Shown here: positions 20,604 through 51,008 of the stretch, piece by piece | Layout of the letters: each line of letters starts with the position of its first letter | How positions within the stretch are numbered: position 1 is the stretch's first letter | NCBI RefSeq assembly: GCF_018739865.1 | Contig: NZ_JADOER010000016.1 | Coordinates: forward strand, 56,923-120,922 | Direction of reading: 5' to 3' | DNA from: Leptothoe kymatousa TAU-MAC 1615 | GTDB taxonomy: Bacteria; Cyanobacteriota; Cyanobacteriia; Phormidesmidales; Phormidesmidaceae | DNA length: 64,000 bases | Translations under genes and position numbers: made by a program | Notes under the pieces: model-generated | Told to the model about the DNA's origin: nothing | The model's input: only the letters and a program-made list of their open reading frames with translations | Database searches by the model: none

Positions 20604-23009
20604 GTGGCTAATTGGATTGGTAAAATCAAAAACGATGGTGCTGATAAGCGGTTAACTGCAGCTATTGCGGAACTGAAACAGCAGAAAACACCGAAACCAC
20701 TTTACAGAAGCATTTTATTTTGGCTCACTCTGCTGGTGGGGGCTGGCATTGCAGGTAGCGCAACCCGTGGCTATCGCTTTTGGCAAGAAGCCAATGCCAA
20801 TCTGCCGGATGTTTCCAATGCATTAACGTTTGAGCGCACAGGCACCATCACCATCAAGGCAGACGATGGCAGCGTTCTGCAAAAAATTGGCCCAGCGACC
20901 CAAGAATATTTGGAATACGATGACATTCCAGATACCTTAGTCCAGGGATTTATCGCCTCAGAAGATCGACGCTTCTACGATCACGGAGGCATTGACTATA
21001 AAGGGATTGCCCGAGCGGTTTATTCCAACGTAAGAAATCGCGATTTGGTAGAAGGTGCCAGTACCATCACCCAGCAGGTTGCTCGCATCATCTTTTTAGA
21101 TCAAGATCGCAGCTTTCAGCGGAAGTTTCGAGAAGCTCTGCTGGCACAAAAATTAGAAAAAGAGCTTGGCAAGGAAAAAATCCTGGAGCGCTATCTAAAC
21201 CTTGTGTATCTTGGCGCAGGAGCCTATGGCGTTGCTGATGCGGCCTGGATTTATTTTGGCAAAGCGGTTGAAGAGTTAACGGTTGCGGAAATAGCCCTGA
21301 TTGCGGGCATGGCTCCAGCACCCAGTGTTTATTCTCCGTTAGTGGATGAAGATGCGGCGAGAGAGCAACGAGATAAGGTCGTTAGCCGCATGTTGGAGAA
21401 TGGGGTCATTTCCCAAGCCCAGGCAACAACGGCATATCGAAGTGATGTTGCCACCACCCCCAACGAACCTAAGTTTCTCTATAGTGAGTTCCCTTACTTC
21501 ACTATCTATGTGCAGAAAAAGCTGCCTGAGCTAATTTCTCAGGATGCGATTGAAGCGGGGGGCCTAATTGTAGAAACGAGTCTCGAACCAAAATGGCAAC
21601 GATCTGCTGAAACAACTCTAGAGGAAGTTTTAGAAGAGTATGGTCGCTGGCAACGATTTGAACAGGGCTCTATTGTGGCTCTGAATCCAAAAACCGGCCA
21701 AATTCATGCCATGGTAGGGGGCACTGACTTTGAAGAAAGTCAGTTTAATCGGGTCACCCAGGCACAACGACAACCAGGGTCCACTTTCAAAGCATTTGTA
21801 TACAGTGCAGCGATCGCAAGTGGCCTATCTCCCTACAAAGGCTATGTCGACGCTCGCTATGTGGTCGATGGCTATGAACCAAAAAACTATGGTGGCAAGT
21901 TCAGTGGCAATGTTGAACTGAGGCGGGCACTGTCCTCTTCCATCAATATTGTGGCCGTCAAGGTGCTGGTGGAAGTTGGTTTTGAACCCGTTATTGAACT
22001 AGCGAAACGCATGGGCATCAAATCAGATTTGCTGCCCGCCTACTCCTTAGCTCTGGGTTCTTCCGAAGTAAACCTGCTAGAAATCACCAATGCCTATGGT
22101 GCGATCGCAGCGGAAGGCAAACATGTAGACGCCCATGGGATTACGCGCATCACTAATCGCAGCGGCAAAGTGCTCTACGAATTTAGCGATGAACCAGAAC
22201 AAGCAATCGATCAAGATTCAGCCGCTATTATGGCCTGGATGATGCGCAGTGTTGTAGAAGGCGGCACCGGCAGCAATGCTTATATCAGCGGCCGACAAAT
22301 TGCGGGCAAAACAGGCACCTCCGAAAAAAATAGGGACCTTTGGTTTATTGGCTTTACCCCCGATTTAGTCGTCGGTGTGTGGTTTGGTAACGACGATAGT
22401 AGCCCTACCCGTGGAGCCAGCAGCACCGCAGCCTATGCTTGGCGCAAGTTTGTAGAACAATTTATTGAAGATTTACCGGTGGAAAAATTCCCTGAACTCC
22501 CTCGCCTATCAGGGAGAGAGGGCTCCATCGAAGCCAAACCAGTCAAACCAGGTAAAGTCATTGCCGAAAAAGCTGGCAGCAGCCGACGTTCTTCCGACAG
22601 CGCCCCACGACAATCAGCCCCCGAACCAGCGCCTCAGCCTCGACGGGCAGAAGAGCCAGCCCCCCAACCGCGTGCAGATCCAGCGCCTCGCAGAAGTACG
22701 CCACCGCCCGTTAGGCAAGAACCCGTAACCCCCGCTCCGGCTCCGACTCCCACCTCCCCCGCTCCGGCTCCCATACCGGCAGAACCGGCGCCGGAGCCTA
22801 TATTTGCCGATCCTCCAGCGCCAGCCGCTCCGAGCGAACCGGTGGCTCCGGCTCCCCCCGTCGCGGCACCAGCACCCATCGAGCCGGCTCCCGTATTCGA
22901 ACCCGCCCCGGCACCACCGGCACCCGCGCCCGCACCACCCGCGCCCATCGCACCGGCACCCGCGCCGGCCGCACCCGCACCGGTAGATGCAGATGTCTCG
23001 GCAGAGTGA
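20604..23009 (+). CDS. Class A penicillin-binding protein (transglycosylase/transpeptidase) with Pro/Ala-rich C-terminal tail
   Basis: GT51: SEDRRFYDHGGIDYKGIARA, EGASTITQQVAR; transpeptidase: RQPGSTFKAFVY, SSSINIVAV, GKTGTSEK; tail PAPAPAPPAPIAPAPAPAAPAP. Confidence 0.95.
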   Translation: MANWIGKIKNDGADKRLTAAIAELKQQKTPKPLYRSILFWLTLLVGAGIAGSATRGYRFWQEANANLPDVSNALTFERTGTITIKADDGSVLQKIGPATQEYLEYDDIPDTLVQGFIASEDRRFYDHGGIDYKGIARAVYSNVRNRDLVEGASTITQQVARIIFLDQDRSFQRKFREALLAQKLEKELGKEKILERYLNLVYLGAGAYGVADAAWIYFGKAVEELTVAEIALIAGMAPAPSVYSPLVDEDAAREQRDKVVSRMLENGVISQAQATTAYRSDVATTPNEPKFLYSEFPYFTIYVQKKLPELISQDAIEAGGLIVETSLEPKWQRSAETTLEEVLEEYGRWQRFEQGSIVALNPKTGQIHAMVGGTDFEESQFNRVTQAQRQPGSTFKAFVYSAAIASGLSPYKGYVDARYVVDGYEPKNYGGKFSGNVELRRALSSSINIVAVKVLVEVGFEPVIELAKRMGIKSDLLPAYSLALGSSEVNLLEITNAYGAIAAEGKHVDAHGITRITNRSGKVLYEFSDEPEQAIDQDSAAIMAWMMRSVVEGGTGSNAYISGRQIAGKTGTSEKNRDLWFIGFTPDLVVGVWFGNDDSSPTRGASSTAAYAWRKFVEQFIEDLPVEKFPELPRLSGREGSIEAKPVKPGKVIAEKAGSSRRSSDSAPRQSAPEPAPQPRRAEEPAPQPRADPAPRRSTPPPVRQEPVTPAPAPTPTSPAPAPIPAEPAPEPIFADPPAPAAPSEPVAPAPPVAAPAPIEPAPVFEPAPAPPAPAPAPPAPIAPAPAPAAPAPVDADVSAE

Positions 23010-47752: not shown

Positions 47753-47916
47753 CTGTAGGTTGGGTTAAACCATGCCGAATGTATGGTTATTGATCCAGGT
47801 CGCTATCAACCCAACAAGTCTGCAACACAAGATGGGCTGGCGCGGTGGGTTTTGCTGGGTTTGCCGATATCCAGACGAACCCAACAATTATAGGATTGGT
47901 GCAACCCAACCTACAG
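47753..47916. repeat. Dispersed-repeat-like segment with 14-bp inverted termini
   Basis: ctgtaggttgggtt at 47753-47766 and its exact reverse complement aacccaacctacag at 47903-47916. Confidence 0.65.
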
Positions 47917-48185
47917 GCGATGATTTGGAGCGGGTGTTGTCTATTTTGTCTGGGATTATGTTGGCGGGTGAGGATTGATGGGGGTGTTGGGTTTGCCAGC
48001 ATTTCGGCAAACCCCGGTGGCTATGGGCCAGGTGCAACCCAACCTACAGGCGATGATTTGGAGCGGGTGTTGTCTATTTTGTCTGGGATTATGTTGGCGG
48101 GTGAGGATTGATGGGGGTGTTGGGTTTGCCAGCATTTCGGCAAACCCCGGTAGCTATGGGCCAGGTGCAACCCAACCTACAGGCG
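47901..48185. repeat. 133-bp tandem repeat, two full copies plus 19-bp third
   Basis: gcaacccaacctacaggcg... starts at 47901, 48034 and 48167 (exact 133-bp period); near identity between copies 1 and 2. Confidence 0.9.
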
Positions 48186-48418
48186 TTTCATCAGGATGCT
48201 GATGACGTCGCCTTGGTTGGGGGTGAGGATAAGCTGGTTGTCGGGGATTTCGATTAGCGGGCTCCATTGGCTGGGTTCGACATACTTGAGGTTGTGGAGC
48301 AGGTGGATGGTTTGGCGAATGCCGCCGGGGCTGCCGAGCAGGATGTGGCGGATGGTTTCGCCAGTGGGCAGGGTGATGGATAGGTCGGCGGGTAGGGTGT
48401 TTAGTGGGGTGATCATGG
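48177..48418 (-). CDS. Small conserved-type cyanobacterial hypothetical protein
   Basis: MITPLNTLPADLSITLPTGETIRHILLGSPGGIRQTIHLLHNLKYVEPSQWSPLIEIPDNQLILTPNQGDVISILMKRL; stop codon lies inside the repeat copy. Confidence 0.65.
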
Positions 48419-48732: not shown

Positions 48733-48830
48733 TTTGCAAAATTAACCCGTGAAGTAGTTTCTTAACAACTCCCTAGCATCGATAAATAGTGTTGACTATA
48801 GTGAACTAACCCCTTAGACGTATCTGCCCT

Positions 48831-51008
48831 ATGGACACAACAGCTGTAATTGTCTTGACAGCATTGATTACGGCGGCAAGTGGATATTTATTAAACCAAT
48901 TACCGGAGGTGCGGCAGTTTAAGGGGCGCAACTGGCTGATTATTCGCCTATTTGTGTGGATTACGCTGCTGTCGGTGACCTATGCCCTTCTGATCGATCA
49001 GAAGGTAACAGAAAACGTAAAAACAGTTACGAAATTTAGTATTGCGCCCCTAGTGCTGTTGCTGATGCTAGATGTGTGGAAACTCGTGACGGTGATGCGA
49101 GGGCAGACAGCAGAGACAGCCGCACCCCAGGATTTGCGAACGCGATTGCTCACAGCCGTTCAAACGGAGGTGGCGGAACGGTTGGAAGATTCGCTCAATC
49201 AACAGGTGGTGATTAATCTGTTGATGCAGCAGCAGCTGAGCCAGGTGAATCGACCGGATAAACAGAAACGTATATCACTGGAGGAGATTGAGCAAAAGCA
49301 GGCGGAGTCTAACTTGATTTTGCTGCCGGAGCGATCGCTACAACGAGATCATCACACCAGTAAGCTAGATCCCCAAGAGTCAATTTTAGAGACCTTTAAC
49401 CGTCGGGATGTGGGCCGAAAGCTACTGATCTTGGGCGCACCGGGAGCGGGAAAAACAACAACCTTGCTTAAGTTGGCTGAGGCGCTGGTGGAAGAAGCCT
49501 TGGAGGACGGACAGCGGCAGATACCGATTATTTTTGAGCTGTCCACGTGGAAAGACAACAATCAGTCGATCCATGACTGGCTGCTTGAGCAGCTCAAGCT
49601 CAATTACAACATTGATTCTAAAACGGGGGCACAGTGGCTGAAATCTACCCACTTGCTGCCGCTGTTGGATGGTTTAGACGAATTGGGGCTGAAACGCCAG
49701 GCGCAGTGTGTGGAAAAAATTAATCAATTTATCAAAGGCCTGGCCTATCCCCATGTGGTGGTGTGCTGCCGCAGTGAAGAATATGGGGAAGGCCGAGTGC
49801 AGCTAGGCGCACTCAAAGGGGCCGTGTGTCTAGAGCCGCTGAGTGATACCCAGATTCAGCAATATTTTTGTGAACAGCTGGAACAGCCTCAGATTTGGCA
49901 AGCCCTACGGCAGCAGCCGGGGCTCAACGCATTATTAGCCCCTTCACCGGAGCGGCAGGTGGGCATTTTACGAATCCCGTTATTTTTAACGATTTTGTCC
50001 GTGGCCTACGGTGATAACACCCTAATTGAATCAGAGATCGATCTGTTGAATGCCTATATTCATCAGCGGCTGATGCTGAATACCCGCAAGACAGAGCGGG
50101 AACAGTTTAGACGCAAGTGGGCTTACCCAAATATTCGGCAGGAGCCTGACGAGACCACTACACGGCACTATCTGAGCTGGCTGGCAAGAACGCTGAATAG
50201 TGAAAATTTAGTAGAGCTGCTGATTGAGAGGATGCAGCCTTGGTGGTTATCGACAAAACGACAAAAATGGATGTACCGTCTGATAGTTGGTCTGATAGTT
50301 GGTCTGATAGTTGGTCTGATAGTTGGTCTGATAGTTGGTCTGATAGGTGGTCTGATAGTTGGTCTGATAGGTGGTCTGATAGTTGGTCTGATATTTGGTC
50401 TGATAGGTGGTCCAGACAATACGATTTGGCCAGTAGAAAGCTTTAAATTTTCGATGTCGCGCGAAGCGCGACGAGAACTTAAAAATGGTCTGATAGTTGG
50501 TCTGATAGGTGGTCTGATAGTTGGTCTGATAGGTGGTCTGATAGTTGGTCTGATATTTGGTCTGATAGGTGGTCTGATAGTTGGTCTGATATTTGGTCTG
50601 ATAGGTGGTCTGATAGGTGGTCTACAAGCTGACTTTCAAATTCGAGAAAAGCCCAATCAGGGTATGTGGGCCGCTGTTTTTAATATTCCATTAATTGCTT
50701 TGTTTAGTTATCCCGGTGCCGTTGGCATCCTATATCTGCCAGCCCTGATTCAGGGCAACAATCCATCCCTGCCTGAAAATATGGTTTCTGGATTGTTATA
50801 CACTTTCATATTTGGAATTTTTCTGGGGGGAGGCAGCGAACTGATTCAGCATGTAACCCTACGTGCTCTCCTTACCCATGCGGGCAACACCCCTTGGAAC
50901 TACGCCCGCTTTTTGAATTACTGCACCGAACGTCGCCTACTCCAACGCATCGGCGGACGCTACCGCTTTATCCACCGCGAACTGCTGGACCACTTCGCTG
51001 AGATGTAG
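48831..51008 (+). CDS. Membrane-anchored NACHT-family NTPase with C-terminal glycine-zipper repeat membrane domain
   Basis: Two N-terminal TM helices; Walker A LGAPGAGKTTTLLKLAEAL; Walker B LLPLLDGLDEL; CCRSEEY sensor region; (LI[V/G/F]G)n arrays; C-terminal PWNYARFLNYCTERRLLQRIGGRYRFIHRELLDHFAEM. Confidence 0.9.
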   Translation: MDTTAVIVLTALITAASGYLLNQLPEVRQFKGRNWLIIRLFVWITLLSVTYALLIDQKVTENVKTVTKFSIAPLVLLLMLDVWKLVTVMRGQTAETAAPQDLRTRLLTAVQTEVAERLEDSLNQQVVINLLMQQQLSQVNRPDKQKRISLEEIEQKQAESNLILLPERSLQRDHHTSKLDPQESILETFNRRDVGRKLLILGAPGAGKTTTLLKLAEALVEEALEDGQRQIPIIFELSTWKDNNQSIHDWLLEQLKLNYNIDSKTGAQWLKSTHLLPLLDGLDELGLKRQAQCVEKINQFIKGLAYPHVVVCCRSEEYGEGRVQLGALKGAVCLEPLSDTQIQQYFCEQLEQPQIWQALRQQPGLNALLAPSPERQVGILRIPLFLTILSVAYGDNTLIESEIDLLNAYIHQRLMLNTRKTEREQFRRKWAYPNIRQEPDETTTRHYLSWLARTLNSENLVELLIERMQPWWLSTKRQKWMYRLIVGLIVGLIVGLIVGLIVGLIGGLIVGLIGGLIVGLIFGLIGGPDNTIWPVESFKFSMSREARRELKNGLIVGLIGGLIVGLIGGLIVGLIFGLIGGLIVGLIFGLIGGLIGGLQADFQIREKPNQGMWAAVFNIPLIALFSYPGAVGILYLPALIQGNNPSLPENMVSGLLYTFIFGIFLGGGSELIQHVTLRALLTHAGNTPWNYARFLNYCTERRLLQRIGGRYRFIHRELLDHFAEM
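50280..50411 (+). repeat. 12-bp coding minisatellite, block 1 (11 units)
   Basis: CTGATA(GTT/GGT/TTT)GGT x11, encoding LIVGx5-LIGG-LIVG-LIGG-LIVG-LIFG-LIGG. Confidence 0.97.
50490..50621 (+). repeat. 12-bp coding minisatellite, block 2 (11 units)
   Basis: CTGATA(GTT/GGT/TTT)GGT x11, encoding LIVG-LIGG-LIVG-LIGG-LIVG-LIFG-LIGG-LIVG-LIFG-LIGG-LIGG. Confidence 0.97.

Follow-up and report, generated by a model that had tools for sequence, protein, structure and literature searches.

A complete gene at positions 48831-51008 of the window (the whole 64,000-nucleotide stretch of Leptothoe kymatousa TAU-MAC 1615 DNA analyzed here) encodes a NACHT protein in which a hydrophobic domain lies between two segments that together resemble one winged helix. 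The open reading frame is intact on the forward strand and translates to 725 residues: a three-helix hydrophobic module, pre-NACHT helices, a NACHT-HD1 core, and the split winged helix. (All coordinates below are forward strand unless stated otherwise.) On balance, we favor reading this protein as a membrane-integrated, NLR-like STAND ATPase with membrane helices apparently built into the winged helix of its switch, likely acting in immunity or cell death.

The NACHT core and its fold

Residues 198-351 (49422-49883) score 44 bits with the Pfam NACHT model PF05729, whose cut-off is 26.7 (E 2.7e-11), and bear out the NACHT NTPase assignment of an earlier note on this DNA. The same model matches every aligned relative in two sets (39/39 and 53/53). 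Walker A (GAPGAGKTTT, residues 202-211; 49434-49463) and Walker B (LLPLLDGLDEL, residues 275-285; 49653-49685) are both intact in the translation, as the note had also reported, and residues G202, G205, G207, K208, D280, and D283 are invariant in the family alignment. Upstream of the core, the pre-NACHT segment LLxAVxxEVxxRLxxSLH (residues 99-190; 49125-49400) is conserved in three family alignments; residues 99-219 give a weak match to the PADLOC IetA profile.

An AlphaFold model of the full protein, built from a 53-sequence alignment, has a mean pLDDT of 83.5, and the top PDB matches in fold searches are NOD2, NLRC4, and NLRP3. The predicted fold most resembles NLR NACHT modules. For a relative from Chlorobaculum (L133), alignment to the NLRP3 NACHT structure 7alv (472 residues) spans 500 columns, consistent with the skipping of a long stretch. 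The earlier reading as a single-gene membrane NACHT protein is supported, and the fold is NLR-like.

A membrane domain apparently within the winged helix

The winged helix follows HD1 but is apparently split by a membrane insert. In the AlphaFold model, its first half (residues 441-475; 50151-50255) comprises helix H1 (441-457), a strand (462-463), and helix H2, at pLDDT values of about 93-98. The insert (residues 476-665; 50256-50825), supported also by a hydropathy census of relatives, is predicted to form six helices (476-502, 506-525, 544-572, 576-598, 610-640, and 647-665), and includes a conserved PNQG loop at residues 608-611. The second half (50832-51005; pLDDT 91-97) comprises helices 668-683 and 691-700, strands 704-707 and 710-713, and a last helix, 716-724. 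It ends YRFIHRELLDHFAEM, a motif found also in insert-free NACHT proteins; residues 711-722 read YRFIHRELLDHF, and this C-terminal tail contains residues invariant across the family.

The Chlorobaculum relative, which is array-free, was modeled as well: six membrane helices are followed by a helix, a wing hairpin, and a helix. (The input alignments of the two models overlap, so they are not fully independent.) Motif order provides further evidence. In insert-free NACHT proteins, the equivalent of YRFIHRELLDHFA lies about 40 to 110 residues past the core-profile match (for example, GDRYQFAHLTLQEFFAA); in the 725-residue protein, YRFIHRELLDHFA starts about 230 residues beyond residue 475, where the core profile ends. 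A profile of residues 664-725, with the membrane columns removed, matched five of nine insert-free NACHT proteins in the right order, versus none of the nine after column shuffling, and the single motif matches to such proteins were weak (-1.7 to 6.1 bits). Together, the two predicted models and the order of motifs argue strongly for a membrane domain inside the NACHT winged helix. The C-terminal YRFIHRELLDHFA, which the earlier note set apart as a motif of its own, most likely marks where that winged helix ends, because the same motif ends the winged helix in insert-free NACHT proteins. The Leptothoe genome itself encodes two NACHT proteins without the membrane insert (L167 and L168, on contigs C14 and C3).

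Part of the insert is built from repeats. Two 44-residue LIxG arrays, already recognized in the earlier note, occupy residues 484-527 (50280-50411) and 553-596 (50487-50618) in the translation, and TRF reports a 12-bp period at 50278-50623. The repeated GxxxG pattern (GLIxGLIx) lies in predicted membrane helices; GxxxG-rich, glycine-patterned helices pack tightly. The family alignment does contain relatives with GLIxGLI stretches, as the note had surmised: many have hydrophobic stretches made of GLIx units, and others have ordinary membrane helices at the same positions. The arrays are therefore one means of building a membrane domain that the family conserves, and the special effector module that had been proposed is not supported.

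The N-terminal slot

All of the family shares the membrane domain, whereas the effectors vary and occupy an N-terminal slot. In the Leptothoe protein this slot holds a hydrophobic module (residues 2-90; 48834-49100) with three helices, at about 2-23, 34-59, and 72-90 by hydropathy scan and by AlphaFold at low pLDDT, where two transmembrane helices had been counted before. About eight relatives have a homologous module. Others have a TIR, kinase, CHAT, cyclase, or EAD10 domain upstream of the core: kinase (6/39), CHAT (2/39), and EAD10 (1/39) in the first relative set; TIR (2/53) and kinase (2/53) in the second; and a cyclase in L128. N-terminal TIR sequences were noted in L112, L124, and L130, comprising two Ktedonobacteraceae-type records (by Pfam) and a Methylococcaceae bacterium (by eye only).

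Additions at the C-terminus include WD40 (L089), TPR (L142), and a zinc ribbon (L122), and Peptidase_S26 is fused in two members and ClpS in one. The TIR, CHAT, kinase, and WD40/TPR parts are typical of immune STAND proteins. A signal-peptidase-I-like C-terminal domain was seen in L051, L154, and L063, and a C-terminal TPR with ClpS-like sequence in L073.

Family distribution and gene turnover

Relatives share a common order. The pre-NACHT segment leads into the NACHT core, a run of hydrophobic segments (mostly four to seven) comes next, and the conserved ending is PWNYARFLxYxxERxxLQRVGGxYRFxHxLLxEHFA. The protein is not solitary, as had been claimed, since three more full-length membrane-NACHT members are encoded elsewhere in its own genome (contigs C4, C10, and C11). 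Among related genomes, 50 of 59 have a match, and eight of the nine match-free genomes are smaller than 5 Mb. An even draw across the phylum gave matches in 45 of 194 genomes at E <= 1e-20, the weaker ones often covering the NACHT part only, which makes for a patchy distribution. Genome contigs scanned with the single protein gave no relative; a profile from a tighter alignment of relatives, run on one genome for each species, further found members in Chloroflexi (Anaerolineales, Ktedonobacteraceae), Chlorobi, Acidobacteria, Methylococcales, and Streptosporangium. The family that has this membrane domain of roughly six helices is large, and extends over cyanobacteria, Chloroflexi, Chlorobi, Acidobacteria, Methylococcales, and an actinobacterium. 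Plasmids of Nostoc, Tolypothrix, Acaryochloris, and others also bear relatives, mostly annotated as NACHT domain-containing or hypothetical proteins. No phage-borne relative was found in the phage collection.

The neighbors of the gene are clpB, a gene for an SLH protein, and dxr, the housekeeping setting that the earlier note had described. The order clpB, NACHT gene, SLH protein gene, dxr is preserved within the genus. In one congener (G004) only a frame-shifted remnant of about residues 1-202 is left, and in another (G007) only about the last 55 codons; other short C-terminal remnants occur among related genomes. (In G003 the contig starts inside the gene.) Remnants at a shared site imply that the NACHT gene predates the species split and was lost at least twice. 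Decay at the same site in two congeners, together with the plasmid relatives, fits accessory conflict genes.

In G004, several kilobases of other ORFs, among them a putative ATPase and a transposase-like ORF, separate clpB from the NACHT remnant (L158, 3400-9600). In the window, a 133-bp unit at 47898-48185 is present in 2.2 near-identical copies and includes GCAACCCAACCTACAGG; in L158 and L159 a comparable sequence, GCAACCCAACCTACG, comes after the end of the NACHT gene or its remnant. A small reverse-strand ORF (48177-48416; about 79 residues, MITPLNTLPADLSITLPTGETIRHILLGSPGG...) adjoins the site and is conserved there in L158 and L161, also where the NACHT gene itself is in decay. A promoter-like site precedes the NACHT gene (48762-48790), of a kind that is at least as common in shuffled sequences. 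A short GC-rich tandem repeat of ACCCGCCCCCGCACC-like units occupies 22901-22983.

Array codons are shared between distant genera

The GLIx repeat goes far past what chance would give. Every one of the 21 GLI units in the gene is encoded by GGTCTGATA, and the 63 codons contain not a single synonymous change; the codon that follows varies (GTT, GGT, or TTT). Across family genes the array unit is mostly GGGCTGATT, regardless of host codon use. In a Trichodesmium array gene, for instance, CTG specifies 16 of 20 leucines within the array versus 7 of 78 outside it. Array codons hardly vary inside any one gene, and the GGG-CTG-ATT core is shared by arrays from distant genera, against host codon bias (for example, L119, L116, L043, and L049).

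Codon agreement was scored at aligned identical residues among 36 array genes, whose mean identity outside the arrays is 37%. Outside, agreement is close to that of random codon bias (Gly, 0.267 versus 0.257; Leu, 0.236 versus 0.192), and inside it is higher (Gly, 0.471; Leu, 0.512). Synonymous sites are saturated outside the arrays, yet array codons are shared between distant genera. Moreover, the fourth-codon variants GTC, TTC, and GGA turn up again in genomes of different families. Local homogenization accounts for the uniformity within a gene, but not for a unit common to distant genera; cross-species exchange, or constraint at the nucleic-acid level, would explain the latter.

The GGGCTGATT unit was found in 12 of 117 related genomes. 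Nine of these 12 were also searched for the family, and the unit there lies within or directly adjoining family genes; the match in G096 was confirmed by the phylum-wide search, and the other two matches are in G066 and G075. A genome-wide repeat was considered and rejected, since within its own genome the array unit of the Leptothoe gene occurs only in that gene. So too was the idea that arrays act as recombination points at which C-terminal halves are exchanged: divergence upstream of the arrays correlates with divergence downstream at 0.33 in array genes versus 0.62 in array-free genes, but the value is also lower in a control with two parts that both precede the arrays (0.40 versus 0.63). 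Contigs that end at arrays, as in G032, indicate that short-read assemblies fragment array genes, so the number of units in 48831-51008 is possibly uncertain.

Searches for known defense systems

No phage-defense family matched the protein above its cut-off. The NCBIfam antiphage NACHT model EruA gave 29.5 bits, below its cut-off of 1000, and the Pfam and NCBIfam searches report neither SNaCT nor NCH1, for which those libraries may lack models. No Avs model is among the PADLOC matches, and the protein ends at the winged helix, without a large C-terminal sensor. The PADLOC identities IetA and PDC-S60 were rejected, since these matches cover only the ATPase and the adjoining part. The association of homologs with defense islands that the earlier note proposed to look for did not emerge: among the 142 nearest neighbors of about 40 relatives there was no enrichment, PADLOC matches being rare and chiefly to generic kinases, and Pfam giving a mixture of general functions.

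Proposed mechanism and alternatives

Known NLRs change state when the winged helix moves with respect to the nucleotide-binding core. By analogy, in a resting ADP state the winged helix would lock the NACHT core. A change in the membrane, or a ligand at the membrane or cytosolic face, would move the winged helix, permitting ATP exchange and oligomerization. Six membrane helices built into the winged helix would couple membrane events to the switch, and glycine-patterned arrays would allow the helices to pack tightly. Oligomerization would in turn cluster the N-terminal part, the presumed output: TIR, kinase, CHAT, or cyclase in relatives and, given the three-helix membrane module of the Leptothoe protein, most likely local membrane disturbance or partner recruitment. 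Partner domains and gene turnover make immunity or programmed death the most likely role.

The earlier note placed the output elsewhere: the glycine-array membrane domain would be the effector, oligomerizing upon NACHT activation into a pore or leak. Tight packing of GxxxG-rich helices and the lack of an enzymatic N-terminal domain in this protein are consistent with that idea, but relatives with TIR, kinase, CHAT, or cyclase effectors still keep the membrane domain, which in relatives is often array-free, and we consider it unlikely. Stress signaling is a real alternative as to role. In its specific form, a regulator of membrane or envelope stress and proteostasis would sense membrane state through NACHT and signal via kinase, cyclase, SPase I, or ClpS-like partners. 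The adjacent clpB gene and the lack of defense-island context point this way, as do the cyclases and the Peptidase_S26 and ClpS fusions (an SPase I or ClpS-like fusion, present in a few relatives, would suit a role in envelope stress or proteostasis just as well). Against it stand the TIR, CHAT, EAD10, and WD40 fusions, the patchy distribution, and the gene decay, so that we hold this form, too, to be improbable.

Two further alternatives concern architecture. The membrane domain could be plainly C-terminal, followed by a short cytosolic tail with an incidental likeness to a winged helix. The weak single motif matches would suit such a tail; high-confidence helix-wing-helix arrangements in two distant models, invariant residues in the tail, and a motif order as in other NACHT proteins make it distinctly improbable. 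Alternatively, the protein could be a KAP-type P-loop NTPase with membrane segments inserted in the NTPase, an arrangement similar in principle. However, Pfam gives no KAP match, the stretch from Walker A to Walker B is continuous and soluble, and the insert comes after HD1 (beyond residue 475), so that this identity is highly implausible.

The NLR-like, membrane-integrated switch that we favor has a broader and more tentative corollary: the family may constitute an undescribed, multi-phylum NLR-like class, in which a membrane-split winged helix couples membrane state to the switch and the arrays are conserved at the nucleic-acid level, through DNA or RNA constraint or through exchange. Animal and bacterial NLRs are mainly read as cytosolic switches. 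If the proposal is true, a membrane protein serves as the conformational lever, which would be a new wiring for an immune or stress switch whose outputs (TIR, kinase, CHAT, and cyclase) are at hand and interchangeable; membrane sensing by an NLR-like protein could then be put to the test. Apart from this, the codons common to the arrays pose the question of how repetitive coding DNA is preserved or passed on between genomes.

Comparison with known systems

A search of the open literature, whose partial coverage makes it weak evidence of novelty, returned related papers on STAND conflict systems and bNACHT proteins, and no description of this architecture. Multicellular bacteria have STAND conflict systems (PMC7159879, PMC8195603, PMC10907252) that overlap with this family in taxa and in partners (TIR, CHAT, kinase, cyclase, EADs, WD40, and TPR); the text searched in those papers showed no membrane-split winged helix. 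The bNACHT antiphage proteins, such as bNACHT25, share the single gene and the central NACHT; bNACHT25 is described as having an N-terminal nuclease and an NCH1 C-terminal domain, and the word "transmembrane" is absent from the main text of that report (PMC12169576).

Animal NLRs (NOD2, NLRC4, and NLRP3) have the same order of NACHT, HD1, and winged helix. Their winged helix, however, is uninterrupted and is followed by a C-terminal LRR, whereas six predicted helices interrupt that of the Leptothoe protein, which has no sensor repeat. In KAP P-loop NTPases, as here, membrane helices interrupt the NTPase module: the KAP segments are inserted in the P-loop core, whereas here the insert apparently lies in the winged helix.
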